A stretch of 33,853 nucleotides of DNA, taken from a virus. Shown one piece after another: positions 3,024 to 29,404 of the stretch (the first letter of the stretch is position 1; each line of letters starts with the position of its first letter). A program made the position numbers and the translations under genes. The notes under the pieces are model-generated. The model did no database searches. It had not been told where the DNA came from and saw nothing but the letters and a program-made list of their open reading frames with translations. The stretch is taken from positions 1 to 33,853 of the IMG/VR virus record IMGVR_UViG_3300025131_000220; one strand, given 5' to 3'.

Positions 3024-3884
3024 ATGGATTGGACTCAACTATTACTTGAAGCAGGGTTGGATATCCCTTTAGAAAACCCTCAATTCATTATAAAATGCCC
3101 CTTTCACGATGATGTCCATGCTTCTTGCTCCATAAATGTCGATAAAGGCATGTGGATTTGCTTTAGAGGATGTGGACAGGGAAGTTTAAGGTCTTTTATA
3201 CAGAGGTTTCTAGGGTTTGATGACTCTGCTTTAAGTAAATACTTAGATGAACGTGAGTTCTCCTTTGACATAAATATGTTTGATGAGGAATTGCCACTAG
3301 AAACAGGGGATTTACCCGAAGTCGAGTCTCCCTTTAAGCATGGATATGTTCCAGAGTGGATTTTCGACAGGGGATTTAATAAGAAAGTCTTAAAACGATG
3401 GGATTGTGGGATAGATAGCTATAATAATCTAATTATTCCTATTAAAGACAGAGGATTTAGACTGGTGGGATGGGTTACTCGTCAATATAACAGGGAACCT
3501 AAGTATCTATATTCAAAAGGATTGAAGAAATCGAAAGTTTTGTTCGGAGAATTCAATATTGAACCATGTTCCTTTGTTTGTATAACAGAAGGAACTTTAG
3601 ACACCATGTGGTTGGATCAACACGGCTATAATTCTGTAGCAATACTAGGGGCAAACATGTCCACTAGTCAACAAGAAGCAGTTTTAAAGCTGCCAACCGA
3701 TGAATTGGTACTGTGTTTAGATAATGATGATGCAGGGAGAATAGGTACGGATCGCATCATGAGTTGCATATCTAATAGATTTGTGGTAAGCTATGTACAA
3801 TTACCAAATGGATACAAGGATGTGCAAGATATTCGAGACAAAACATTATTAAGTGAAGTAATTAAAGAAAGAACTTTTTGGTAA
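3024..3884 (+). CDS. DNA primase, CHC2 zinc finger plus TOPRIM
   Basis: 286 residues. The N-terminus carries the CHC2-type zinc ribbon of bacterial and phage primases: C25-x2-H28 and C46-x3-C50. A TOPRIM fold follows: I-T-E-G-T-L-D (about 189-195, the catalytic Glu) and L-C-L-D-N-D-D-A-G (about 231-239, the DxD metal site). It would lay RNA primers for the polymerase and probably works with the helicase two genes upstream. It is much shorter than cellular DnaG (about 600 residues) because the helicase-binding domain is missing; this compact form is usual in phages. The stop is followed by the ribosome binding site of the SSB-like gene. Confidence 0.85.
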   Translation: MDWTQLLLEAGLDIPLENPQFIIKCPFHDDVHASCSINVDKGMWICFRGCGQGSLRSFIQRFLGFDDSALSKYLDEREFSFDINMFDEELPLETGDLPEVESPFKHGYVPEWIFDRGFNKKVLKRWDCGIDSYNNLIIPIKDRGFRLVGWVTRQYNREPKYLYSKGLKKSKVLFGEFNIEPCSFVCITEGTLDTMWLDQHGYNSVAILGANMSTSQQEAVLKLPTDELVLCLDNDDAGRIGTDRIMSCISNRFVVSYVQLPNGYKDVQDIRDKTLLSEVIKERTFW

Positions 3885-3907
3885 GCAGAAATAAGAAGGA
3901 GGAAAAA

Positions 3908-4606
3908 ATGAGCGGTATAAATAGAATAGCTACAAAACGAGAACAGATTAGGAATCCTCAATCGGATAAACCTACAAATAGAGAAGTATGGTTTAAGGAC
4001 GGAGATCAGGCTTTTATATCACCTGTAGCAACAGGAGATGAGAATGATAACAAGCTTGATGAAATCTACCTATACACATTCAGAAATTCAGAATCTAGGT
4101 GGACTAACCGTCTGATTGATGATTCTGTAGATAATAGTGATGTTCCTGCAAATATGAGACCTTCTCATAAGTTTGCTTTTTGGGCATATATACATGAGAT
4201 AGTCCATCCAGAGAAGAGGAATGATTCATGGGAAGAAGTGGCCGGTCCCGGTGGACGTAAAGTGTTCAAAGAGAACGTAGAAGATTTCCGTATTATAGCA
4301 CTGACATTTGGTAGAAGTGATTATATATGGAATCAGTTAGTGGATGTCTACAATGATTGGGGCGGTCTGAATAAAGGAGTTATGCGAGTTAAACGTACTG
4401 GTACAGGAATGTATGATACATCATATGCTCTAGCAGCAACTGCCAGAAACTCAGAAATTCCTGATGAACGATTAGAGGAAGTTAACGAACTTCCATCTAT
4501 ACGAGCGTACTTCCTTGAACGGTATGGAAATACCACATCTGTAGAAGGTGGAACTGAGGCAGTATCTTTAGACGAAGAAGATAAGTCTAATGACAACTTA
4601 TTCTAG
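3908..4606 (+). CDS. Probable single-stranded DNA-binding protein
   Basis: 232 residues. I chose ATG 3908 because AAGGAGG lies just upstream; an in-frame TTG at 3878 also exists but would put that binding site inside the gene. The body is rich in aromatic and basic residues (W-F-K-D-G-D-Q-A-F, Y-L-Y-T-F-R, F-A-F-W-A-Y-I-H-E) and the last 25 residues are acidic and end in D-N-L-F. An acidic tail with a terminal aromatic is the protein-interaction feature of phage SSBs such as T7 gp2.5 and T4 gp32. Location between primase and polymerase supports the role. No fold-level match was tested. Confidence 0.65.
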   Translation: MSGINRIATKREQIRNPQSDKPTNREVWFKDGDQAFISPVATGDENDNKLDEIYLYTFRNSESRWTNRLIDDSVDNSDVPANMRPSHKFAFWAYIHEIVHPEKRNDSWEEVAGPGGRKVFKENVEDFRIIALTFGRSDYIWNQLVDVYNDWGGLNKGVMRVKRTGTGMYDTSYALAATARNSEIPDERLEEVNELPSIRAYFLERYGNTTSVEGGTEAVSLDEEDKSNDNLF

Positions 4607-7648: not shown

Positions 7649-7895
7649 TAGTGGAGAAGGGCTAAGAGCAAGTGTTTTAGAGGCTGTATTGGCTGAACGA
7701 GAACGTCAAGAAGGTCTCTGGGGAGACCAATCAGGGCATTCTGACGCGTGGTGGACTGTTATAGCAGCAGAAGGGAGCGGTAAAGTAGCTAGAGCCGTTT
7801 ATGAACAGGATGTAGCTAAGGCTTACTTAGAGATTATTCAAATCTGTTCCGTATACTTTGCTTGGGCTGAAGCTATATTAAGGAGAACTAAATGA
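7635..7895 (+). CDS. MazG-like nucleotide pyrophosphohydrolase-type protein
   Basis: 86 residues. The layout V-L-A-E-R-E-R-Q-E-G-L-W-G (about 18-30), then I-A-A-E-G-S-G-K-V-A-R-A-V-Y (about 45-58) and L-E-I-I-Q-I-C-S-V-Y-F-A-W-A-E-A follows the small phage relatives of MazG, where helices carrying Glu and Asp bind magnesium and cleave (d)NTPs to monophosphates. The usual E-E-x-G-E is replaced by A-E-G-S-G-K, so one metal-binding Glu may be absent and activity is uncertain. GGAG lies 7 bases before the ATG. The gene ends in an ATGA overlap with the recombinase gene, a clear case of TGA used as a stop. Confidence 0.55.
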   Translation: MSQNSSGEGLRASVLEAVLAERERQEGLWGDQSGHSDAWWTVIAAEGSGKVARAVYEQDVAKAYLEIIQICSVYFAWAEAILRRTK

Positions 7896-8836
7896 AAAAT
7901 TCTGCTGAAGAAGTTATCGAAGATTTATTAAAGACTACAAAATTAGATTTCCATAGAGGTTCTGATGATTCCTTCTTATACAGTAGGATACCTTTTGGTA
8001 TACCAGCTTTAGACCATCTTACAGGAGGAGGAATACCTAAGAAGAGAATGACAATTCTATATGGCCCTACTAACGTAGGGAAATCATACTTAGCTTCACA
8101 GATAGCTGTCAATGCTCAAAAGGCTGGTGGAACGGCTGCATGGATAGACACAGAGCTATCATGGGATAGTGATTGGTATAAAAAATGTGGGGTTGATGTA
8201 GATAACACCCTAGTCTCTCAACCAGTTAACGGTGAAGAGGCTATGGATATGGTACGAGAGTTAATGCAGATGGGGATAGATGTGATTATTCTTGACAGTA
8301 TTGCAGGATTAGTTCCTACGACTGTCGCAGAAGAAGAGTTTTCATATAATCCTATGGCATGGCAAGCTAGATTCGTAAATTCTGCCCTGCCTAAACTATT
8401 ACCTAACTTAAAGAAGGGATCAGCATTGGTCGCAATTAACCAAGTTAGAAGTAGTATTGGCCCTGTAGCCTTAGATAATATGCCCGGAGGACTTGCTCAG
8501 TCATTCTTTGCACACTTCTTATTACAAGTTCGTAGAAAAGGGTGGATTGAAGATAAGGATAAGGCTAAGGTAGGCTTTGATATGGAGATAAGACTAAGGA
8601 AAACTAAGGTAGGTGGGGAGAACTGGGACTCTGCGATTGTACCATTTAGGGTTGAAGGCGGTATTGATGTCTTGGAAAGCTTCATTAGAGAAGGAATTGA
8701 TAAGAAAGTGATAACACAAGCTGGTGCATGGTATACTTATAACGGAGAAAAGGCTATGGGTTTGAATGGAATCAAAGCTTTGTTTAGAGATACGGAAGGA
8801 TTATTCGACAAATTGAAGGGAGAGGTGGTAGTATGA
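7892..8836 (+). CDS. RecA/UvsX-type recombinase
   Basis: 314 residues. Walker A is G58-P-T-N-V-G-K64-S65; the D-T-E strand end is at about 91-93 (I-D-T-E-L-S-W); Walker B is V-I-I-L-D-S-I-A-G near residue 130; L-V-A-I-N-Q-V-R near 175 is the DNA-binding loop 1 border and the N-M-P-G-G region begins loop 2. This is the RecA core without the long C-terminal domain of cellular RecA (about 350 residues), as in phage homologues. It would form filaments on ssDNA for strand exchange and recombination-dependent replication. Linked genes for a Cas4-like nuclease and a RuvC-like resolvase make a recombination block. Start and stop both lie in ATGA overlaps. Confidence 0.9.
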   Translation: MKNSAEEVIEDLLKTTKLDFHRGSDDSFLYSRIPFGIPALDHLTGGGIPKKRMTILYGPTNVGKSYLASQIAVNAQKAGGTAAWIDTELSWDSDWYKKCGVDVDNTLVSQPVNGEEAMDMVRELMQMGIDVIILDSIAGLVPTTVAEEEFSYNPMAWQARFVNSALPKLLPNLKKGSALVAINQVRSSIGPVALDNMPGGLAQSFFAHFLLQVRRKGWIEDKDKAKVGFDMEIRLRKTKVGGENWDSAIVPFRVEGGIDVLESFIREGIDKKVITQAGAWYTYNGEKAMGLNGIKALFRDTEGLFDKLKGEVVV

Positions 8837-9087: not shown

Positions 9088-9441
9088 ATGTCTTCTATTA
9101 AACCTAGGGATTATACTGAACAAGAAAATATAATTGCTGAGTGTTTGTCTGAATTTGGGCTAAGATACGAACAGCAATACGACTTTTATCCGTATACCGT
9201 TGATTTCTACATTGCTGAGATTAATATGGTGATTGAAGCTGACGGTGTATATGGACATTTACGTAAGCGAGAGGATAAAAGAGACTATAACCTAGTGAAT
9301 GTTTACGGAGTACCCCATGTAGTACATATAAAAGAAACTACGAAAGGAGAAATTAAAGAGATATTATGGCAGGAATTAAACAAATTACAAAACGAGCAGA
9401 CAAACCATCCAAATCCAAAACTCCAAGAAAGCCACGAGTGA
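9088..9441 (+). CDS. DUF559/Vsr-like PD-(D/E)xK endonuclease-related protein
   Basis: 117 residues. E-N-I-I-A-E-C-L-S-E-F-G, Y-E-Q-Q-Y-D-F and Y-T-V-D-F-Y-I-A-E (about 29-50), then M-V-I-E-A-D-G-V-Y-G-H (about 48-58) match the DUF559 pattern, whose fold is that of Vsr mismatch endonuclease and other PD-(D/E)xK nucleases. The D of V-D-F-Y-I and the E of V-I-E-A-D-G are the expected metal ligands. The final 25 residues are polar and overlap the next gene by 76 bases. It could nick or resolve recombination intermediates. Family placement is good; the DNA substrate is unknown. Confidence 0.65.
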   Translation: MSSIKPRDYTEQENIIAECLSEFGLRYEQQYDFYPYTVDFYIAEINMVIEADGVYGHLRKREDKRDYNLVNVYGVPHVVHIKETTKGEIKEILWQELNKLQNEQTNHPNPKLQESHE

Positions 9442-10067
9442 AGAATCAAGATACATGGCTTCTTAAACATATAGATAATAACCTAAAGTATACAAAGAAG
9501 TGGACTGTTAAGGACGTATTCTATCCTTCTATGTTAGGAAATCTATGTGATAGATACCTATACTTGGCTTATAATGGTAAATTAGCTGATCAAGTTATTG
9601 AAGCGAAGACAGCTAGGATTTTTGATAATGGATCGGCTCTAGAAGTCCGAATGAAGAAATACTTTGAACGAACAGGGTTATTCTTAGCTGAAGAGCAGTC
9701 AGTTAAATTGAATATGCCACCTATTTCAGGAAGGTACGACTTTTTATTAAAGCATGAAGAGCGTGGTCGAATAATACTAGAGTTGAAATCTATTAACGAT
9801 AGAGGTTTCTCAGCTTTAATTGACAGTCCAAAGCCCGAACATTCTATACAGTTACAGATTTATTTGAATCTAGCAGGTGTGGATAATGGTGTGGTCTTAT
9901 ATGAGAACAAGAATGATCAGACATTGAAAGCATTTAAGGTAGATAGGGATGAAGATACGTGGAATTCTATATTGGAACGATGCACACGTATACAATCTAT
10001 GACTCCTGCAGAAATGCCTGTAGATTGTACAGGAGAATTTTTCTGTGGGTGTAGGGGGGTAAAATGA
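9366..10067 (+). CDS. Cas4/RecB-like PD-(D/E)xK nuclease with probable Fe-S cluster
   Basis: 233 residues. Nuclease residues are D125 in S-G-R-Y-D-F, E139-L-K141 and the following Q-L-Q-I-Y (RecB motif). Cys61 (N-L-C-D-R-Y-L-Y) and a C-terminal trio C221, C227, C229 match the one-plus-three arrangement that holds a 4Fe-4S cluster in Cas4 and AddB. By family it would be an exonuclease that makes single-stranded overhangs, fitting the RecA gene upstream and resolvase downstream. The start ATG overlaps the DUF559 gene by 76 bases, with only AAAGAG close by, so a slightly later start cannot be excluded. No CRISPR repeats are in the window, so an adaptation role is not suggested. Confidence 0.75.
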   Translation: MAGIKQITKRADKPSKSKTPRKPRVKNQDTWLLKHIDNNLKYTKKWTVKDVFYPSMLGNLCDRYLYLAYNGKLADQVIEAKTARIFDNGSALEVRMKKYFERTGLFLAEEQSVKLNMPPISGRYDFLLKHEERGRIILELKSINDRGFSALIDSPKPEHSIQLQIYLNLAGVDNGVVLYENKNDQTLKAFKVDRDEDTWNSILERCTRIQSMTPAEMPVDCTGEFFCGCRGVK

Positions 10068-13778: not shown

Positions 13779-15701
13779 ATGATAACGGCAACTAAGTCGG
13801 TGCAAGAACTTCAACAGTCCGATCTTCTATCAGAGCAAGCTCAGGTAGTATTAGGACATCGGTACTTTTTGAAGGATGAAAATAGCAATGTAATAGAAAA
13901 TGGGGACGGACTCTTTAAAAGAGTCGCAAAAGCAATAGCTTCTATAGACAGTAATTACTATGGATTACCTGTTGAAGCGGAATTATTAGAAAATGATTTT
14001 TACGCAATGATGAAAAATCTAGAGTTTCTACCCAATTCCCCAACATTAATGAATGCTGGAACAGAACAGGGAACTTTATCAGCATGTTTTGTTTTGCCGT
14101 TAGAAGATTCTATGGAAGGGATAATGAAAGCCGCCACTGATTCAGCTATGGTACAGAAATTTGGAGGGGGGACTGGCTTTGCGTTATCAAAAATTAGACC
14201 TCGCGGAGACAAAATTAAAACTACTCATGGTATTGCATGTGGCCCAATTGAGGTATTAAAAACTCTTTCTAGGGTATCATCCATGATTACACAGGGAGGT
14301 AAGAGAGATGGTGCGAATATGGCAGTCATGTCAATCTATCATCCTGACATCCTTGATTTTATTGATTGTAAGTCTGTTGAAGGTGACATACACAATTTTA
14401 ATATATCGGTGGGAGTGGACTCCCGATGGATGAATTATGTCATGACTAACAGCGACTACCCACTAATTAATCCTAGTGATAATTCAGTAACTGGTTATTT
14501 GAATGCGCGAGAAGTATTTAACAAGATTGTTGAAAGTGCTTGGAAAAATGGGGAACCGGGTATAATTTTCTTGGATTATGTGAATAATGATAATCATGTC
14601 ATAGAGGAATATGGAGAAATGATAGCTACTAATCCATGTGGAGAACAACCACTACTTGGAAATGAAAGTTGCAACCTAGGCTCTATAAATCTATCTAAGT
14701 TCTTCTATTCTAATACAGAGATAAAAATAGGTGGAGTAAACCTAGATGGTACAACGAGTGACAGTTCATGGCACTATAAAATTAAATGGGGTGCTTTAGA
14801 AAACATAACTAGATTAGCAGTACATTTTTTGGATAATGTAATTGATGCTAATTATTACGCCACTCCTGAAATAGAAAAGATGACTAAATCTACTCGAAAA
14901 ATAGGGCTTGGTGTGATGGGATTCGCAGATTTACTTATCCAAATGAAGGTTCCTTATGATTCAAAGGAAGCACAAGAAGTGGGTACGTACATAATGCAAG
15001 AAATTAGAAGATGGTCTGACGACGAATCTCGTAAATTAGCAGAGGTTCGAGGAACCTTTCCCGCATGGGATAATAGTACGTATGATAAAGAAACTGAGGC
15101 ATATAGAAATCACTGCAGATTAACTGTAGCACCTACTGGAACTATATCTATGATTGCAGATACGTCTAGTGGTGTTGAACCAACATTTGCTTTGGCGTGG
15201 AAGAAACAAAATATTCTTGAAGGAAAGACACTTAATTACGTTAACAAATATTTTGAAGCTGATGCAAAGAGCTATGGTTTTTATTCTGAAGATTTAATGA
15301 ATTATCTGGCTGAAGGAGGTTCTTTGCGAGATAGGGAAGAAGTTCCTCAGTGGGTTAAAAGTATATATGTTACGGCTCCAGAGATTTCTCCTAGCAATCA
15401 TGTATTGATGCAAGCAGCGTTTCAGAAGTCCGTGGATGCAGGTATATCTAAGACGATTAATTTTGCGAATAGCGCAACTCTTAAAGATGTTGAGGATGCA
15501 TATATGTTAGCGTGGACTACAGGTTGCAAAGGAATAACCGTTTATAGGGCTGGTAGTAGAGATAAAGAGGTTTTAGTTAAGGGAAACGCAGATTTAGATA
15601 TGATTGAGGATTTTGATTGTTGTGAAACTCCTAATGTCGCTTATGAATCTGGATGCCACACATGTAAAACTTGTGGATGGAGCGCATGTTTAGTAGCTTA
15701 G
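13779..15701 (+). CDS. nrdJ: Class II (adenosylcobalamin-type) ribonucleotide reductase
   Basis: 640 residues; makes deoxyribonucleotides from ribonucleotides. Visible: redox Cys C103 (L-S-A-C-F-V-L-P), the [11 protein letters not shown] loop, N285-P-C287-G-E289 (finger loop with radical Cys), C298 in E-S-C-N-L-G-S-I-N, and A-P-T-G-T-I-S near residue 450. The C-terminal C626-x2-C629-x2-C632-G-W-S-x-C637 is typical of B12-dependent NrdJ and passes electrons from a thioredoxin or redoxin. No NrdB partner gene is nearby, supporting class II. GGGGAGG lies 7 bases before the ATG. It sits between terL and portal, outside the replication block; the putative seleno-redoxin at 17226-17453 is the natural electron donor. 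Confidence 0.9.
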
Positions 15702-15754: not shown

Positions 15755-17092
15755 GTGCATAAGTTTCTCAATCGAATCTTTAATTGGAAGGCTATAGCCA
15801 CAGTTTCTAGGAGAACTATAGGAACTTTGGCACTATTAGTAGGGCTATTAGGTTTAGCAGTGTTATTTGTTAACCCTATGCCAGTACTTGTTTCAGTGCT
15901 ACCATTTTATTATGGGAATATTTTAGGTACAGGTTATTGGATATATATAGAGCAATCAGTTGTTCAAGGTTGGTTAAACACATTTTGGAAAGAGATAGCT
16001 ATTTCTGCTAGCGTATCTTCTGTAGCACTATTCTTAGGGATTGTGTTACTCAGAAAAGGGTTAAAGAATGGTTTATTTGCTTTCGGTAGAGATGTAAAAG
16101 CCTCACCAAGAAATGCAATAGAAGCACCAAAGCATCTATATCGTAAAACTATTGTATGGCGTAATTGGTTACTAGAAAAAGTAGACTACTTACAAACGGA
16201 AAGTGCAAAATGGAAGAGAACCTTCCAGATTATGAAATCTCCGTACAGTTTTCTTAGAATGATGGGCTTTAGCCCACAAATGGCAGCTAGCTTCCTAATA
16301 GCTGGTTCCGCAGTTGGTGGCGGTGTGGTTGTTAATGAGACAGTATTTGCTGAGAAATCATTTGCTCGTGGCGACGCTGGAATTTATGCCGCTTCTCTTG
16401 CTCCAGACATGGGAATACCGGGAAGTCCTCCCTTAGATATACCTACAGAGTATGTTGAAGGCTCAAATACCCTTCGGATTGACCTTGGGTCAACTCCAGT
16501 TCGGGAAATAACTATTGAAAATGTCTCAGTCGGAACTGTTTTCACAGGGTCTGCATTACCGTCAGGAGAATCTAATGTGGTACAAGTATCAGGGAATACT
16601 ATATCTGGCGGTACTAATACACGATTAGAAATAGGTCATTTAATATTTGAAAATTCTCGTTGTAAAAAGCTAACCCTTACTGATATACAGGCCCATACAA
16701 TTATTGTAAAAGGCAATGCCAGTGATGGTCAGTCAATAGCACCAAGTCCCGGAACTAGTCGTATGAGAGCTATAGGTGGGGGACATCAACAAGCTGATGC
16801 CATGATCACCAATGGAGGTACGTATGACCGAATATGGATTCAGGCGCCGGCAAGTGGGGTTAATGGGAAGGTAGGTATTTTAAGACTGTCTAATTTATAC
16901 ACAAAAGGTGGAGACTGTATTCTATCTAAAATGAATGTAGGAACTATGGAGATTGTCTTAAACGAGATCGGAATGGGCAATGGTTTTGCTACTAAAGAGT
17001 TTACTATTGCTACTACAGTGACAGGGGCTAATATAACGGTTCAAGACAATGTTGAAGTGAGTATAGCTGAACCTGTTACCGCTGGTCATTAA
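15755..17092 (+). CDS. Membrane protein with beta-rich C-terminal half, function unknown
   Basis: 445 residues from a GTG start with TAGGAGG 8 bases upstream. Hydrophobic segments at about 22-52, 78-100 and 172-196 suggest three membrane passes, the last ending in a V-F-A-E-K-S site like a signal-peptide cleavage point. From about 225 on the sequence turns into repeated short strands (L-R-I-D-L, I-T-I-E-N-V-S, L-T-L-T-D-I-Q, I-I-V-K-G-N, I-L-R-L-S-N, M-E-I-V-L-N) reminiscent of a right-handed beta helix, probably outside the membrane. Not recognised. It could be a surface or superinfection-exclusion protein. Its position between nrdJ and the redoxin gene is unexplained. Confidence 0.75.
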   Translation: MHKFLNRIFNWKAIATVSRRTIGTLALLVGLLGLAVLFVNPMPVLVSVLPFYYGNILGTGYWIYIEQSVVQGWLNTFWKEIAISASVSSVALFLGIVLLRKGLKNGLFAFGRDVKASPRNAIEAPKHLYRKTIVWRNWLLEKVDYLQTESAKWKRTFQIMKSPYSFLRMMGFSPQMAASFLIAGSAVGGGVVVNETVFAEKSFARGDAGIYAASLAPDMGIPGSPPLDIPTEYVEGSNTLRIDLGSTPVREITIENVSVGTVFTGSALPSGESNVVQVSGNTISGGTNTRLEIGHLIFENSRCKKLTLTDIQAHTIIVKGNASDGQSIAPSPGTSRMRAIGGGHQQADAMITNGGTYDRIWIQAPASGVNGKVGILRLSNLYTKGGDCILSKMNVGTMEIVLNEIGMGNGFATKEFTIATTVTGANITVQDNVEVSIAEPVTAGH

Positions 17093-17105: not shown

Positions 17106-17213
17106 ATGTTCGGGTACAAAAGTAATTTGATAAAAATTGCGGATGGTGATACAATAGATGTAGTAGGCTTTTCCGCTGTTCTAAAAAACAGCGGATTCGC
17201 CTTTAAATGGTGA
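17106..17213 (+). CDS. Possible 35-residue protein
   Basis: Short reading frame starting at ATG with TAGGAAAAA before it, ending in TGA just before the ribosome binding site of the next gene. The peptide has I-K-I-A-D-G-D-T-I-D-V-V-G-F and ends F-K-W, which looks protein-like. However, a promoter (17127-17155) and a hairpin (17165-17202) lie inside it, so the region may be a regulatory leader rather than, or as well as, a gene. Confidence 0.4.
   Translation: MFGYKSNLIKIADGDTIDVVGFSAVLKNSGFAFKW
17127..17155 (+). promoter_or_regulatory. Sigma-70-type promoter upstream of the seleno-redoxin gene
   Basis: TTGATA (17127-17132) and TACAAT (17150-17155) are 17 bases apart, and TGA before the -10 forms an extended -10. 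Transcription would begin near 17162 and include the hairpin at 17165-17202 in a leader of about 65 bases before the ATG at 17226. It would allow the redoxin and following genes to be expressed apart from the late operon. Confidence 0.55.
17165..17202 (+). terminator. Leader hairpin (terminator-like or regulatory)
   Basis: An 8-bp perfect stem CCGCTGTT / AACAGCGG (17173-17180 with 17187-17194) closes a six-base CTAAAA loop; an outer AGGC/GCCT pairing (17165-17168 with 17199-17202) extends it across a 4x4 internal loop. Only TTT follows, a poor U-tract, so it may be a weak terminator or a leader structure of the redoxin mRNA. Confidence 0.5.
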
Positions 17214-17225
17214 AAGGAGTAAATT

Positions 17226-17453
17226 ATGGCAACAGTAACGGTATATACAGCGCTTGGTTGAGGCCCATGTGTGATGACCAAGTCTTGGTTAAATAACAAT
17301 AATATATCTTTTAGAGAGAAAAAAGTTGAACGAGAAGGTGTAGCAGAGGAACTAATGGGTTTAGGACACAGAGTTACACCAGTAATTATGATAGACGGAA
17401 CAGCGATAGTTGGGTATAGTCCTAAGAAGTTAGAGGAAGCGTTGAAGATATAG
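17226..17453 (+). CDS. Glutaredoxin/NrdH-like selenoprotein candidate (in-frame TGA as selenocysteine)
   Basis: 75 codons, ATG with AAAGGAG 6 bases upstream, TAG stop at 17451-17453. Codon 12 (17259-17261) is TGA. Reading through gives V-T-V-Y-T-A-L-G-U-G-P-C-V-M-T-K-S-W-L, the N-terminal beta-alpha unit of a glutaredoxin with U12-x2-C15 replacing C-x2-C. Later hallmarks are present: R-V-T-P-V-I-M-I-D-G (cis-Pro loop) and I-V-G-Y-S-P-K-K-L-E-E-A-L. A stem-loop fitting bacterial SECIS rules lies at 17275-17291. TGA is a normal stop elsewhere in the window. The role inferred is electron donor to the class II reductase at 13779-15701. A gene finder would report only the fragment from GTG 17271, losing the active site. 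Alternative: a TGT/TGC to TGA mutation or sequencing error. Confidence 0.83.
17275..17291 (+). promoter_or_regulatory. Candidate bacterial SECIS element
   Basis: Stem TGACCAA (17275-17281) pairs with TTGGTTA (17285-17291), seven pairs including one G-U, with a three-base loop GUC (17282-17284). The loop starts with G and begins 21 bases after the TGA, inside the 16-37 range described for bacterial SECIS elements, where a G at the start of the loop contacts SelB. The hairpin is inside the coding region, as bacterial SECIS must be. Base pairing was judged by eye, not by folding software. Confidence 0.7.
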
Positions 17454-17895: not shown

Positions 17896-19563
17896 ATGAA
17901 ATTATCAGATTATTTACCTGAAGTTCCAGCATTTGCTCAACAGATGAATACTTTAAGTGATCAGATTCACCAATTCCAGTTGATGAAAGAGTCAGGAGAT
18001 ACAGGTCAAGCCCCTACAATTGGTCTAGACCATGTGGTAAACACTTGGGTTCGACACCAAATGGCTTACAGGCAACAGCTTGTAATGGACTTACAGACTA
18101 TATGTATGACAGTAGAAGAAATTCGATCTCCTTTAAATCACATAACAAGTGAAGTATTTAGGAGAGGTCTACAATGGAAACCTTTGGTAGCTAATCCAGA
18201 TGAAAGTCAAATTAAAGTCTTTAGTGAGTTCATAAAAGATTGTAATGTGTTTGATCAAAGTCTGGAAGAAGTCCTAAGACAATTCCATTTTGATGTAAAC
18301 TCTATTGACGACGGATTTTTATACCTAGCTAAGGAATATTATAGTTCTAGTGATGGGAGTTTGAGGTCTAAGGTCAAAGAGATTCGTAGATTGAATCCAT
18401 CTTTGGTGGAATTTGATCTAGATGTATCTGGTTTGCCTAAGAACGCTCACTTCCTATGCCCGATACATAGAGATGAAGTTAAAGATACTCCTCAACAATG
18501 TGATCACGGCGGCTGTGAAAGACAGTGCCAAGCAGTTATGTATAAATACTATCATCGTAATCAACAGATTTATTTGTTTGATTCTGAGATAATACATATG
18601 ACTAAGTTCTCTCCTTCCGAAACGTATGGCTGGTCACCAATACTAACAATTTTTGAGAAGGCTTTGACGTTGATTGGAATGGATAAGAACCTCTATAGGT
18701 ACTTCTTTGAGAGAAAGATGCCAGCTTCTATGGTTATGGTGACTACCGATGATCCTGAGAGCCTTAGAAGGGAAAGAGCTAATATAGCTGCCCAAACTAG
18801 ACTTGATCCTAACTATATTCCTATGATAGCTGTTTCAGCTAGGAATCAACGAGGACGAGTTGACCTTGTACGATTATTCCATACTCTACAAGAGATGGAT
18901 TATCTTCCTGTTAGAGAAGAAATTCGGGAACGAGTAGCTGCTATGTGGGGAGTTACCCCTGCTTGGCAAGGCGCACCAGATGCTTTTGGTGGGCTATCTA
19001 GTCAAACACAGCAGTTAGTTGTTATGAGTCGTGTAGTGGAATCAGATCAGAGACTCTTACATGAGAAGGTACTCCCTGTTCTATTAGACGCTTTTGGTAT
19101 TACTGACTGGGCTTTAGTTCTACCTAATCCAGAAGAAAAAGCTGAAGCAACTAAAATCAGTTTTGCACAACAGAAGATTCAAGTTGCAAGTGCTTTGGCT
19201 CAACTAGGATTTACCGTTACCTTAAAAGAACAAGGAATAGACTTAGGTGACATAGAGTTCGCTATAAGTGGCGAGTATGTACCGAAGGCTCAGATGGAGG
19301 GAGAAGCACAAGCTATGCAAATTGCACAACAAGAACAACAATTTAAGATGCAACAGCAACAACAGGAGCAACAGGAGCAGCAAATAGATATGGCTCAACA
19401 GCAAGCTAATGAAACAGGGGAGCCTGTAGAAGTCGATGTCGGAGGCGGTGGTGGAGAAGCTATCCAAGCTGCCCTTCTTAAAGCTGAGAAGACTCAACGA
19501 GAGAAGGAAGAAGAGTACGCATTTGAAGTAATGAGAGAAGAAGAATACGAAGAGGAAATGTAA
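17896..19563 (+). CDS. Portal protein
   Basis: 555 residues. Recognised as a portal by overall layout: long helical N-terminus, Y-G-W-S-P-I-L-T-I-F-E-K-A-L near 240, the F-F-E-R-K-M-P-A-S-M-V-M-V strand near 275, A-F-G-G-L-S-S-Q-T-Q-Q-L near 370, and a Gln-rich C-terminal tail (about 475-505). Twelve copies would form the DNA entry vertex where terminase docks. Unusual: residues 188-211 hold C188-x2-H191, C202, C207 and C211 (H204 also), a likely zinc site inside the portal. The stop overlaps the next ATG (TAATG). Confidence 0.8.
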   Translation: MKLSDYLPEVPAFAQQMNTLSDQIHQFQLMKESGDTGQAPTIGLDHVVNTWVRHQMAYRQQLVMDLQTICMTVEEIRSPLNHITSEVFRRGLQWKPLVANPDESQIKVFSEFIKDCNVFDQSLEEVLRQFHFDVNSIDDGFLYLAKEYYSSSDGSLRSKVKEIRRLNPSLVEFDLDVSGLPKNAHFLCPIHRDEVKDTPQQCDHGGCERQCQAVMYKYYHRNQQIYLFDSEIIHMTKFSPSETYGWSPILTIFEKALTLIGMDKNLYRYFFERKMPASMVMVTTDDPESLRRERANIAAQTRLDPNYIPMIAVSARNQRGRVDLVRLFHTLQEMDYLPVREEIRERVAAMWGVTPAWQGAPDAFGGLSSQTQQLVVMSRVVESDQRLLHEKVLPVLLDAFGITDWALVLPNPEEKAEATKISFAQQKIQVASALAQLGFTVTLKEQGIDLGDIEFAISGEYVPKAQMEGEAQAMQIAQQEQQFKMQQQQQEQQEQQIDMAQQQANETGEPVEVDVGGGGGEAIQAALLKAEKTQREKEEEYAFEVMREEEYEEEM

Positions 19564-22500
19564 TGTCAGCTAATGATTTTGATCTACATGATGGCTTTGA
19601 TCTAGAACTTCCAAAGCCTGAAGATGAGTATGATGGTAAAGAGATACCTAATAACCAACGTCTATATTTAAATGCTGCAGAAGCTGAAGCATATGTAGCT
19701 AGGGGTCATAGAGTTTATCATGGCCCTCATCAAGGAACATTTATAGATGAGACTGAATTAGAGTCAAAGACAGTACGAGTTGTGCCATTTAGGTATGTGC
19801 ATGAGAAACAGGCGTGGATCAAAGACTTCATAGAAAATGATCCAGAAACAGGGAAGAAACGAGAATATGCTGAACCATTCGTATTAAAAAAGACAACTGG
19901 TGATATAACACTAGCTAAAATGTACCATGTTCCGAATCACGGCCCAGATACCTTACTATATGAGGATGGTGTTGAAAGAGTAAGTGGATCGGACGAAGCT
20001 AAAGAAGCTAAGAAGAAAGGTATTAAACCTAAAAAACATTGGGAAGATTCTAATCCTGACGTAAAAAAACCCAAAAAGTCAACTCATAATCATGTTATTA
20101 GTAAAAATAAGACCCCAACTTTAAGTGGGGCTGATAACATTCCTGTACATGCACAAAATGTTTATGTATCGGCTGATGAAACGGCCCCTATTCAAGCAGT
20201 CTTTTGGAATCCTGTCGAGGGAAAGACTAGGCATATATTTAGTAAAAAGGTGGCTTCAAGTAATAAGGTTACTAAGTGGTCTGATTTACGAGAGCATTGG
20301 GATCACTTACCAACCACTATAGAGAAAATTTTAGCAGGTACTGATACCGCTGAGATGGATGATAGTCATAAAGTTGTCGCTCTCATCGCATTAACCGGTT
20401 TTAGACATGGGGAAGCAAGCGACGAAGGTAATAAACTAGCAGCGAATGAAGAAGAATTTAAAGCTAATGGAAGAACATCTAAGAAAAATACAGGGGAACG
20501 TACTGGTACAGGAACAAATGCATTACAAGCACGAGACGTTACACTAACAGAAGCAGACGGAGATAAACCTGCGTCAGTCCGATTTTATTTCTCAGGAAAA
20601 GCAGGCGTGTTACATGACCATACATATACTGAGGGTGAGGGAAATGGTTCTTCAGTAGTAAATATTATACGACAAGCTTTAAAAGGTAAGGAGTCTACAA
20701 ATAGACTTTTCTCAGATACGAATGAGCTTAAAAACAGAAATAAATTAAGAAGTTTTGTTCCCGAAGAATATGCACTTAACGGTCATATGGAAACTACGAA
20801 AGAATTAAACATAAAAGATATAAGATCGTATATGGGAACAATGGCAGCTAGGAAAGAAATACAAAGATATATAAAAGAAGTTGGAGACCCTAGAGATGAG
20901 AAAGCATTTCCTACTCTTAAACAGAGAAAAACAGCCTTTGAAAAAATGAGAGACTCTGCTGGATTCGCTGCAGGAGAAGTGTTAAATCATAAAACACGGG
21001 ATACGATAAAGAATGATGAGGGGGAAGTTATTGAAACTAAGTGGAACCCTAAGAAATCTGAAGCGATAAAGAGTTATATTGACCCAAAGGAATGGGAAGA
21101 GTATAAACCTAAAGATGTTATTCTTAAGCTTATGAACATGGTAAAAGATTTACAGACTCTATCGAAAGCGTTGCCACCCAATGCAGTCTATTCTTCAACG
21201 GAAGCTCCTCCTAAAGGAGCTATGACCTTTGTAACGGACAAGCAAGAAGCAGAATATTGGTTACAACAAACGGAAGTCTTTCCACAAACTCCAGATGTAG
21301 GAGATTTAATTGAGGCTGATCCACAGGCGCAACAAATTTTACAAGATTTAGTAGCACAAGAAGGAACACCTTATGTAGTAGGTGGTGGGGTACGAGATGT
21401 TCTGGTAGGCAAACCTAGTAAGGATATAGATATTGAAGTGCATGGAGTTCCTATAGATAAATTAGGACAGCTTATGGTTAAACATGGAGGTGAAACAAAA
21501 CAAGTAGGTAAACAATTTGGAGTGTTTAAAGTAGGTAACGTAGACGTATCATTACCTAGAACAGAAACTAAAACAGGAACTAAGCACACAGATTTTGATG
21601 TGCAAGCACATACAGAACTACCATTAAAACAAGCGGCACGTAGAAGAGACTTTACTATGAATGCTTTGATGTATGATGTAAAGAATCATAAAATTATAGA
21701 CTTTTTCGGTGGACATGACGATATCGTGGCTAAAAAGATTAAACATGTAGATGATGACACTTTTATAGAAGACCCATTACGTGTGTATAGAGCCGCTCAA
21801 TTTGCAGGGAGATTTGGTTTTTCCATTGATGAATCCACTATAAAGTTAGCTAGGTCGATGGATTTGTCCGATTTACCAAAAGAAAGAGTTTTTGAAGAAA
21901 TGTCAAAGCTCTTACTGAAATCACCGAAACCTTCTGTAGGTTTACAGGCTTTAGATGATATGGGTGTCTTAGATCAGCAAATGTCTGAATTAAAGCAGTT
22001 ACAGAGTACGCATCAAAGAGGGGATTATCATGCAGAAGGGGATGTTTTTGAACATACAAAAATGGTTGTTGACGAAGCAGCCAAAATCAGCAAGAATTTT
22101 AAACGAGGGAAGGATCGACAAATTATCATGTTAGCTGCTCTTTGTCACGATTTAGGTAAACCAGCTACGACTGATGAAAAGGGTAGTGCTTTTGGACACA
22201 GCAAAGCTGGACTAGAACCTACCAAACAATTGTTAAATAAATTTACTGACGATAAAGAAATTATAGATATAGTTTTATCCTTAGTAGAACATCATTTAAT
22301 TCCGTTACAATATCATAGGGATAAAACAGGAGATAACTCTTTCAGGAAATTAATTAATAAACATGGAACTAATTTTCTTCATTTATTATCGGCAGTTTCC
22401 GAAGCAGATAATGCTGGGAGATTGCATAGACAAGATGATGGTAAGGTAATAAAACCGACTAATGAAGCGAATGAATGGTTTAGAGCCGCTATTAATAGGA

Positions 22501-23171
22501 TAGGGACAGAAGAAGGAATCACATCCGAAGGTACACTAAAACCATTAGTTACTGGTAAAGACTTGCTTGATCTAGGTTTTGTACAGGGCAAACGAATTGG
22601 AGAAGTGTTACAAGATATTCAACGACGACAAGAAGCTGGAGAATTAACGGATAAGAAAGAAGCGGTTGAATACATCCAAAACATTCATAAGTCTTATGTT
22701 AGTGACTATTTCTTAAAAGCTAAAGGTAAATACAAAGGACGAACAGGTGGAATAACTCCTGATTGGACAATGAAAGTACCCGGTGAAGAGAGAGATATAG
22801 ATGAATGGGCAGAAGCTCGTAAGAAGAAGGCAGAAGAACGACAATGGGGAATCAAACCTGTAGGTGGACAACCAATGTCTAAGACATGGGTAGGTTCATT
22901 AAATGAGAAAGGTTTTTCATCACCTTTAATTAAACAGGTATTAGGTTCTCAAATGTGGTTTATACAAGACGGTGTTGACTATGTAGCTACATTAGGGAAT
23001 GAAGTAGTTACAACAGTAGAAAAAGCTACTTTCACGTATAATAAACCTAGTGTATCTTATGCACCTTCAGGACGGAATAACCACAATTCAAATAGAAGAA
23101 GTTCAGGTAAGCAAGGAGAGAGATATCAAGGTGATATTATAGACGATGAGGAGGATGATCATAATGTCTAA
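19563..23171 (+). CDS. Topoisomerase IB - tRNA nucleotidyltransferase - HD multidomain protein
   Basis: 1202 residues, ATG overlapping the portal stop. (1) N-terminus (about 25-60) with V-Y-H-G-P-H-Q-G-T-F, like linkers in phage head proteins. (2) About 190-520: topoisomerase IB, starting I193-P-V-H-A-Q-N-V-Y-V, with the full catalytic set R281, K346 (F-S-G-K-A-G), R421 (K-D-I-R-S-Y), H476 (L-N-H) and Y505 (S-Y-I-D-P). (3) About 595-850: class II nucleotidyltransferase of the CCA-adding/poly(A) polymerase family, V-G-G-G-V-R-D, D621-I-D623, and R-R-D-F-T-M-N-A near 695. (4) About 840-960: HD domain, L-C-H862-D863-L-G-K-P. (5) C-terminal part ending in an acidic tail. Placement after portal suggests a minor head protein injected with DNA. 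Each domain is well supported; the combined role is inference. Confidence 0.85.
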   Translation: MSANDFDLHDGFDLELPKPEDEYDGKEIPNNQRLYLNAAEAEAYVARGHRVYHGPHQGTFIDETELESKTVRVVPFRYVHEKQAWIKDFIENDPETGKKREYAEPFVLKKTTGDITLAKMYHVPNHGPDTLLYEDGVERVSGSDEAKEAKKKGIKPKKHWEDSNPDVKKPKKSTHNHVISKNKTPTLSGADNIPVHAQNVYVSADETAPIQAVFWNPVEGKTRHIFSKKVASSNKVTKWSDLREHWDHLPTTIEKILAGTDTAEMDDSHKVVALIALTGFRHGEASDEGNKLAANEEEFKANGRTSKKNTGERTGTGTNALQARDVTLTEADGDKPASVRFYFSGKAGVLHDHTYTEGEGNGSSVVNIIRQALKGKESTNRLFSDTNELKNRNKLRSFVPEEYALNGHMETTKELNIKDIRSYMGTMAARKEIQRYIKEVGDPRDEKAFPTLKQRKTAFEKMRDSAGFAAGEVLNHKTRDTIKNDEGEVIETKWNPKKSEAIKSYIDPKEWEEYKPKDVILKLMNMVKDLQTLSKALPPNAVYSSTEAPPKGAMTFVTDKQEAEYWLQQTEVFPQTPDVGDLIEADPQAQQILQDLVAQEGTPYVVGGGVRDVLVGKPSKDIDIEVHGVPIDKLGQLMVKHGGETKQVGKQFGVFKVGNVDVSLPRTETKTGTKHTDFDVQAHTELPLKQAARRRDFTMNALMYDVKNHKIIDFFGGHDDIVAKKIKHVDDDTFIEDPLRVYRAAQFAGRFGFSIDESTIKLARSMDLSDLPKERVFEEMSKLLLKSPKPSVGLQALDDMGVLDQQMSELKQLQSTHQRGDYHAEGDVFEHTKMVVDEAAKISKNFKRGKDRQIIMLAALCHDLGKPATTDEKGSAFGHSKAGLEPTKQLLNKFTDDKEIIDIVLSLVEHHLIPLQYHRDKTGDNSFRKLINKHGTNFLHLLSAVSEADNAGRLHRQDDGKVIKPTNEANEWFRAAINRIGTEEGITSEGTLKPLVTGKDLLDLGFVQGKRIGEVLQDIQRRQEAGELTDKKEAVEYIQNIHKSYVSDYFLKAKGKYKGRTGGITPDWTMKVPGEERDIDEWAEARKKKAEERQWGIKPVGGQPMSKTWVGSLNEKGFSSPLIKQVLGSQMWFIQDGVDYVATLGNEVVTTVEKATFTYNKPSVSYAPSGRNNHNSNRRSSGKQGERYQGDIIDDEEDDHNV

Positions 23172-25707: not shown

Positions 25708-26004
25708 GTGAATATAAAGGAGTGGATAAGTGAGTATAATGAAGAAGCAATGATGGCAGATGGTTTTGATGATGCCATTATAGGTATCTGTGAACGTTTT
25801 GGTAACGAGCCAGTAGTTGCATATGATAGGGATAAAGCTATCGAGATTTTAATGGAGATGGTGGCAGAAGGACACGAAGAAGACGACGAAGACATTAGAG
25901 ATATGGCTGAAGAGTATTTTGTATATAATGTTATAGGTTCTTATGTGGGTGAAAATACACCTGTTTTCGTATCATTAGTTCCTTGGGATGACATAGACGA
26001 ATGA
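25708..26004 (+). CDS. Small acidic phage protein of unknown function
   Basis: 98 residues from GTG with AAGGAGG 7 bases before it. M-A-D-G-F-D-D-A-I-I-G-I-C-E-R-F-G-N-E-P (about 16-35), V-A-Y-D-R-D-K-A-I-E-I-L, an acidic stretch E-E-D-D-E-D, then F-V-Y-N-V-I-G-S-Y-V-G-E-N-T-P-V-F. I recall this pattern from small proteins in many phages, without a known function. The stop overlaps the next ATG (ATGA). Confidence 0.65.
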   Translation: MNIKEWISEYNEEAMMADGFDDAIIGICERFGNEPVVAYDRDKAIEILMEMVAEGHEEDDEDIRDMAEEYFVYNVIGSYVGENTPVFVSLVPWDDIDE

Positions 26005-28066: not shown

Positions 28067-29404
28067 ATGGCTAATCCATCCCTTAGTGAATATTTAGCCC
28101 AATCGCAGCGTGGATTGTACCAGTCAGTATTCGGTCCTGAATACTTGATGAAGCAGAGCTACTTTACAGTAGACACTGCCACCGGTATATTCAACACTAC
28201 TTATGGGCGTAAGGTTTGGCAAGCCCTGAACAACCAAACACGTTTCTTCAATGCCATTCCCAGAACAGTCTGGGGAAATACGGCTGGTTGGCGTGTTAGG
28301 ACGGACAGGGGTTCGGGACGATCCCGACCTGTGACAGAGACTGGTTCTCTCCCGACAGTAGATATTTCCAACATTGAGACGGTATCGAGCTTGCCTCGCG
28401 TCGTTTCTACGACCTTCGGAGCATCCGTGAAGTCAGTCTTCACCGCTCAATTAGAAGGCGGTGTTGGGGATGTGCTGGCGTTAGAGAATGAGAATGCACA
28501 GCTTGACCACGTAAAGGAAATTAACGAGGAACTACTTGCTGGTTCCGCATATCTAGTATCTGCAGGTGGAGCAACATCGTTTACAGTACCTGCAGCAGTA
28601 GCAAAACATTTTAAAGTCGGTGATGCAGTTGGAATGAACAACGTTGGTACAGGATTCGACAGGACTTCCGGTTCTGCGGTATCCGCAGTTAACACCTCTA
28701 CTGGTGTAGTAACTGTCGCTAGCGGTACTGCTTATGCCGATGGAGACGTAGCATTTATCTACAGTCGTGCTGGTCTCACCTCAATTGACGACGTCGTTGC
28801 TGAAGACGGCGCGGTAGTTGGTGGTGCGTCTGGTGGAGCCAACGTTAGGGCTTATGATCTAACTCAGGCTGGACGAGCTGCAGGTGATTGGGACGCTGGT
28901 GCTTATGTCTCCCATAACTCAGGTGTGGGACGAGACTTGTCTCTCACACTACTTGACACAGCCATTCAGAAGGTCAGAGAGAATGGTGGAGAGCCTAAAC
29001 TGATTCTTCTTGGACATGACCAATACTTCAAACTAGAGCGACTTTTGAACTCTAACCAGAGGTACATGGGACAGGAAGAGTATCAGGTAGGTGTAGGTTC
29101 AGAGCGAACCTTCCCCGGCACTCGAACTGGTCTAGTGTTGGCTACGTATCAAGGAATTCCAATTCTTCCAGATGCTGATGTGCCGAAGTCGGTTTCATCT
29201 GCAGATGCAGTATTGGGAAGCAATGTCTATGTTTTGGATACAGACTATCTTGAAATTGCAGTTGCTCAACCTACTCAGTACGTTGAGAACCGTGACTACT
29301 TCGCAGCTAATGCCCTAGTGGTAAGAGGTTTGCTCTATACCATGGCAGAAATGCGATGCAAGAACATCTTTGTCCAAGCAAAGATCGCAGATTTGAACAG
29401 TTAA
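28067..29404 (+). CDS. Major capsid protein
   Basis: 445 residues, GGAGG spaced 8 from ATG. HK97-fold capsid features: N-terminal Y-L-A-Q-S-Q-R-G-L-Y arm, then R-V-R-T-D-R-G-S-G-R-S-R near 78-89, a central inserted domain at about 165-235 rich in small strands (G-V-V-T-V-A-S-G-T-A-Y), and C-terminal F-F-A-A-N-A-L-V-V-R-G-L-like end. No enzymatic motif. Its codons look richer in G+C and more regular than its neighbours, consistent with heavy expression. A hairpin follows the stop. Best-supported head gene after the portal. Confidence 0.8.
   Translation: MANPSLSEYLAQSQRGLYQSVFGPEYLMKQSYFTVDTATGIFNTTYGRKVWQALNNQTRFFNAIPRTVWGNTAGWRVRTDRGSGRSRPVTETGSLPTVDISNIETVSSLPRVVSTTFGASVKSVFTAQLEGGVGDVLALENENAQLDHVKEINEELLAGSAYLVSAGGATSFTVPAAVAKHFKVGDAVGMNNVGTGFDRTSGSAVSAVNTSTGVVTVASGTAYADGDVAFIYSRAGLTSIDDVVAEDGAVVGGASGGANVRAYDLTQAGRAAGDWDAGAYVSHNSGVGRDLSLTLLDTAIQKVRENGGEPKLILLGHDQYFKLERLLNSNQRYMGQEEYQVGVGSERTFPGTRTGLVLATYQGIPILPDADVPKSVSSADAVLGSNVYVLDTDYLEIAVAQPTQYVENRDYFAANALVVRGLLYTMAEMRCKNIFVQAKIADLNS

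Follow-up and report, generated by a model that had tools for sequence, protein, structure and literature searches.

Conserved in-frame UGA codon and SECIS-like hairpin in a phage glutaredoxin-fold gene: evidence for a putative viral selenoredoxin downstream of a class II ribonucleotide reductase

Introduction

A short reading frame in a viral contig raises the question of whether a phage can encode a selenoprotein, since a UGA codon stands in frame where a small redoxin would have the first Cys of its active site. The contig (IMG/VR record IMGVR_UViG_3300025131_000220), referred to below as the window, was analysed over its whole length of 33,853 nucleotides. Glutaredoxins with a UxxC motif are a known family of bacterial selenoproteins, marine ones included (PMC1088965, PMC13188914), and tRNA-Sec genes have already been reported from phages (PMC6145125, PMC10747093). 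We found no phage selenoprotein in a search that covered the open-access literature, few subscription papers and no preprints, so that priority is unproven, and neither phages nor viruses are named in the two reviews consulted. The initial annotation of this DNA had held phage selenoproteins to be rare or unreported, which agrees with the searched literature, where only phage tRNA-Sec genes are mentioned.

Results and Discussion

The reading frame and the predicted fold

A Shine-Dalgarno sequence (AAAGGAG, 17213–17219, plus strand) can be read directly upstream of a frame at 17226–17453 on the same strand, which opens with ATG (17226–17228), passes through TGA at codon 12 (17259–17261) into GGC CCA TGT, encoding G-P-C, and closes with TAG (17451–17453). 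The TGA occupies the first Cys position of a C-x-x-C motif, and the TGT at 17268–17270 encodes the resolving residue, Cys15. Read through, the gene would specify a YruB/NrdH-like protein of 75 residues with selenocysteine (U12) as the first residue of U-G-P-C. The ordinary list of open reading frames holds only 17271–17453 (GTG start, 60 aa) at this locus, and gene callers would therefore report a mere fragment. On re-reading, the ribosome binding site, start, TGA, G-P-C and stop described in the initial annotation proved exact, as did its statement that standard calling yields a fragment from 17271.

The read-through protein matches the Pfam Glutaredoxin family (PF00462; E value 3.9e-10) over residues 4–60, i.e., across the TGA, with 40.2 bits against a gathering cutoff of 22.9; this score, together with the thioredoxin-like fold of the model, places it in the glutaredoxin superfamily. 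The AlphaFold2 model of the 75-residue protein has a mean pLDDT of 94.9, and its best matches among solved structures are BC3987 and cGrx1 of Clostridium oremlandii (TM 0.91), with NrdH proteins lower. The clostridial cGrx1 (PDB: 7c10) is also the top sequence match in the PDB (E value 1.7e-11). Scores against narrower curated families fall below their cutoffs, both for the top match of the library, the YruB family TIGR02196 (61.6 bits; cutoff 88.55), and for NrdH TIGR02194 (51.1 bits; cutoff 85.75). The Uxx-star model NF041212 gave 35.4 bits against a cutoff of 66, and the protein thus lies outside curated Uxx-star.

The codon at the active site of homologues

Homologues were collected from 80 viral contigs that encode a related portal protein and from IMG/VR, which was scanned twice with a DNA pattern built on the TGA motif; these scans need TGA and are therefore blind to other codons at that position. 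A Cys-coded alignment search, which returns Cys versions only, served as the count of the latter. TGA is present at the active-site codon of 44 distinct homologues from many IMG/VR contigs and metagenomes, in the motif U-G-P-C or U-R-P-C. The aligned TGA homologues are 42–75% identical to the window protein, and one close homologue (74% identity) has TGA at the same codon. The Cys form was found in a single lineage, consisting of three contigs with one sequence (L083–L085, the same as records L069–L071; Cys-coded motif search). Four DNA-pattern matches (L135, L180, L182 and L184) were set aside, as no redoxin is present there.

An estimate independent of the codon comes from loci chosen by the portal protein, whose gene lies at 17896–19563 (plus strand; phrog_18178, E value 2.8e-38) in the window. 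Of the 59 such loci that extend far enough upstream, 24 carry the Sec form, three the Cys form (all with a single sequence) and 32 no redoxin gene at all; because about half of the related phages do without it, the gene is accessory.

The comparison with homologues, named in the initial annotation as the check on its reading, thus returned a Sec-type UGA in 44 distinct sequences and Cys in one lineage, and bears out the placement of the TGA at the first Cys of C-x2-C. Two marks of a selenoprotein gene are therefore found: an in-frame UGA that aligns with Cys in homologues, with the frame conserved on both sides, and UGA-containing homologues from several genomes. A nonsense mutation or sequencing error in a Cys-type NrdH gene could also have produced the TGA, in agreement with the 60-aa fragment from 17271, which is all that standard calling yields. 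This origin is effectively ruled out by the 44 homologues from many metagenomes that share the TGA, with the remaining frame conserved, and the hairpin described below is retained only together with the TGA; we give this explanation next to no weight.

Many other TGAs with conserved flanks occur in frame in the window, and we regard most of them as shadow frames of other genes; at 17259 all 49 of 49 matches have U. Of 41 sequences, 36 have GGC or GGG as the Gly codon that follows the UGA (17262–17264 in the window), and GGA or GGT make up 78% of the Gly codons of the window. This bias may reflect a constraint that acts on the UGA context or on a lower stem.

The genetic code

A UGA at a Cys position could also be read as Cys, or as another residue, if the codon had been reassigned throughout these phages. 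TGA nevertheless ends five of the 40 listed genes of the window (at 7895, 8836, 9441, 10067 and 26004), and relatives of the TGA-ending genes stop with TAA or TAG near the same place. Elsewhere in the window, 102 codons TGT or TGC encode Cys, and these two codons also specify the second Cys of the redoxin motif itself in 42 of 42 counted sequences. A changed code was rejected on these grounds, and its probability is negligible. The initial annotation had listed four TGA stops (7893–7895, 8834–8836, 10065–10067 and 26002–26004) and concluded that the code is unchanged; both points hold, with the stop at 9441 as a fifth.

A SECIS-like hairpin within the coding sequence

A hairpin that resembles a bacterial SECIS element (UGACCAA-GUC-UUGGUUA; 17275–17291, plus strand) starts 13 nt past the UGA, inside the coding sequence, and had gone unnoticed in the initial annotation. 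Its first paired base is nt 14, 20 nt lie between the UGA and the GUC loop, and the loop G is nt 21. Location within the gene is the bacterial arrangement, and the bSECIS model specifies a loop of 3–9 nt, a stem of 4–16 bp, a G at loop position 1 or 2, a distance of 16–37 nt from UGA to loop, and an MFE of at most -7.5 kcal/mol (PMC13188914). With its 3-nt loop and 7-bp stem, the window hairpin is within the limits for loop, stem, loop G and spacing; its MFE of -6.8 kcal/mol misses the energy limit, and the values for relatives range from -6.1 to -18.1 kcal/mol, several of them passing it. The hairpin thus fits the bacterial SECIS model, the energy of the window's own copy excepted. Rfam returned nothing at gathering and otherwise only a chance match (E value 1.3).

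A hairpin with 6–8 pairs is present in all 42 of 42 scored sequences, in one of the registers tested, and a G is kept at or beside the start of the loop. A 5-nt loop results in five sequences (L003, L037, L080, L091 and L103), whose innermost pair is open. Within the main group of 28 sequences, 13 have C-G and 13 have U-A at one stem pair, and 15 cells changed on both sides were observed against 6.7 in shuffles, with 0 of 500 shuffles as high, although these counts are not probabilities because the sequences are related; controls with slid partners gave at most 5 such cells. Among 35 sequences the covarying pair is C-G in 16, U-A in 14, C-A in 5 and U-G in none; on trees of the portal and of the redoxin its state changes 6–8 times. 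The base on the 3' side of the pair is the wobble position of a Leu codon, and the change is therefore silent in the protein. A divergent group of six sequences has a different 7-bp hairpin, shifted by 3 nt (CGAAAGC-GUG-GCUUUCG or UGAARGC-GUG-GCUUUCA; loop GUG, 23-nt spacing), although folding of one member, L140, predicts a competing helix. In L181 and L183, where the conserved Trp is replaced by Tyr, GUGAAAG-GGUAU-CUUUCAC can form, as judged by reading the sequence.

The Cys lineage keeps the peptide M-A-T-K-S-W-L but has ACG AAA rather than ACC AAG, and the hairpin is absent in that register while the surrounding protein is nearly unchanged. The Thr codon of the stem is ACC in 32 of 36 sequences, and ACC accounts for 10% of the Thr codons of the window, a choice that fits selection on the RNA. 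Synonymous recoding of the window sequence alone gave an equally good stem in 15% of draws; the protein motif by itself favours pairing. The hairpin evidence accordingly draws its weight from the combination of compensating changes, rebuilt hairpins and hairpin loss in the Cys lineage.

Hairpins downstream of stop codons are able to stimulate read-through. A near-cognate tRNA might therefore decode the UGA at a low level without selenium, stimulated by the hairpin, to give an 11-residue peptide along with the full protein, and a Sec machinery in the host is presumed. The UGA, however, coincides precisely with the catalytic Cys position, and Trp or Arg there would destroy redox function; no use is evident for the 11-residue product; the hairpin is absent from the Cys lineage; and the size, loop G and spacing of the hairpin agree with the SECIS model. 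We consider selenium-free read-through improbable, if somewhat less so than mutation or reassignment.

From the UGA and the hairpin, both of which are conserved, we infer incorporation of selenocysteine, and judge it very likely, as far as sequence comparison can tell, that the UGA at codon 12 of the window is recoded in this way. The U-x2-C redoxin proposed in the initial annotation is thus supported by the TGA homologues, to which the SECIS-like hairpin adds independent evidence at the RNA level. The in-gene hairpin would direct the decoding, as bacterial SECIS elements do, and SelB and tRNA-Sec of the host would insert selenocysteine at the UGA.

Host and selenium machinery

A search of 22 viral records, of which many are fragments, gave no tRNA-Sec above cutoff, no SelB and no SelD, and the host would therefore have to supply Sec decoding. 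Four viral records have weak tRNA-Sec matches that proved to be tRNA-Tyr; four related viral contigs (L144–L147) carry tRNA-Tyr genes.

The replication genes are of bacterial type (a PolA-like polymerase, a DnaB-like helicase and a DNA primase). Portal and major capsid (28067–29404) proteins have no relatives among deposited phages other than distant ones (22–31%) in haloarchaeal and methanogen-associated tailed viruses. For this reason we weighed an archaeal host, but the in-gene hairpin and the bacterial-type replication genes favour bacteria. A search of genome contigs with the portal protein gave one match, the phage-like L142 in a Daviesbacteria MAG. This 110-kb contig, from a groundwater MAG of uncertain binning, is probably a phage contig; it has a related terminase – class II reductase – portal block, with a portal 60% identical, and no redoxin in the stretch examined. 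The phages themselves are uncultivated and probably marine, the latter a provenance that we assume from the IMG sample numbers.

The neighbourhood and the probable partner

The redoxin gene lies downstream of a gene for an adenosylcobalamin-dependent (class II) ribonucleotide reductase, NrdJ (13779–15701, plus strand; TIGR02504, 648 bits, cutoff 400), with a Cys-rich C-terminal tail, and upstream of a small ORF and the portal gene. A 445-aa ORF (15755–17092) without a Pfam match, whose counterpart in L002 is at 3087–4373, stands between reductase and redoxin. It is followed by the 5' remnant of a gene (17107–17225, plus strand; alignment with L002) that is intact in L002 (4609–4992) and nuclease-like by eye; about 260 bp are missing between the remnant and the redoxin ribosome binding site. 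The order in L002 is as in the window: reductase, large ORF, two small genes, redoxin. Beyond the portal gene, one frame of 1202 aa (19563–23171) has matches to topoisomerase IB, to the head of CCA/poly(A) nucleotidyltransferase and to an HD domain.

Class II reductases require an external dithiol donor, often thioredoxin or an NrdH-like protein. From the position of the gene and the kind of protein we infer that the selenoredoxin is the donor, and consider this partnership with the phage reductase reasonably probable. The small UxxC protein would then pass electrons to the reductase by fast thiol-disulfide exchange, and the two together would aid dNTP supply during infection. A selenoredoxin with another role, i.e., repair of peroxide or methionine-sulfoxide damage or takeover of host redox, is a less likely prospect. 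MsrA is the proposed target of the related clostridial cGrx1 (PMC7642778), and many related phages have the reductase without the redoxin; the location downstream of the class II reductase in both the window and L002, and the NrdH-type matches, speak for the reductase instead.

Taking the reductase as partner, we lean, by a small step only, towards the combined proposal that widespread, probably marine tailed phages carry a SECIS-bearing selenoredoxin dedicated to a B12-dependent reductase, that phage DNA synthesis needs both selenium and cobalamin of the host, and that this is the first described family of phage selenoproteins. If so, tailed phages would join the users of the 21st amino acid, selection for a SECIS at the RNA level would be established in viral genes, phage nucleotide synthesis would be tied to the selenium status of the host, and the range of hosts would be constrained to those that decode Sec. 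As standard annotation misses such genes, further phage selenoproteins may be hidden.

Comparison with known systems

The closest characterized protein is cGrx1 of Clostridium (Alkaliphilus) oremlandii, a native selenoprotein with a catalytic selenocysteine in a U(or C)PxC motif (PMC7642778). The window protein has the same fold (PDB: 7c10; TM 0.91) and 39% identity; cGrx1 is, however, cellular and clostridial, with MsrA as proposed partner, whereas the gene in the window belongs to a virus and has a class II reductase nearby. Ten Sec-containing UxxC glutaredoxins (COG0695) were identified in the Sargasso Sea metagenome, with a bacterial SECIS (PMC1088965), and the window gene resembles them in its probable marine setting and its SECIS-like hairpin; the words phage and virus are absent from that paper. 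Our results raise the question of whether some metagenomic 'bacterial' selenoredoxins are viral.

Fold and length are also those of NrdH redoxins and YruB-family glutaredoxins, among them Cys forms from cultured phages such as gp80 of Bacillus phage G, annotated as YruB-like. The window protein differs from these in its scores, which are under the curated cutoffs, and in its putative Sec instead of Cys; matches in deposited phages are all less than 60% identical. By the NCBIfam description, Uxx-star (NF041212 and relatives) comprises small glutaredoxin-like (seleno)proteins, a likeness in kind that stops short of the curated family in score. As far as searched, a phage UxxC family is new; cellular UxxC glutaredoxins are known.
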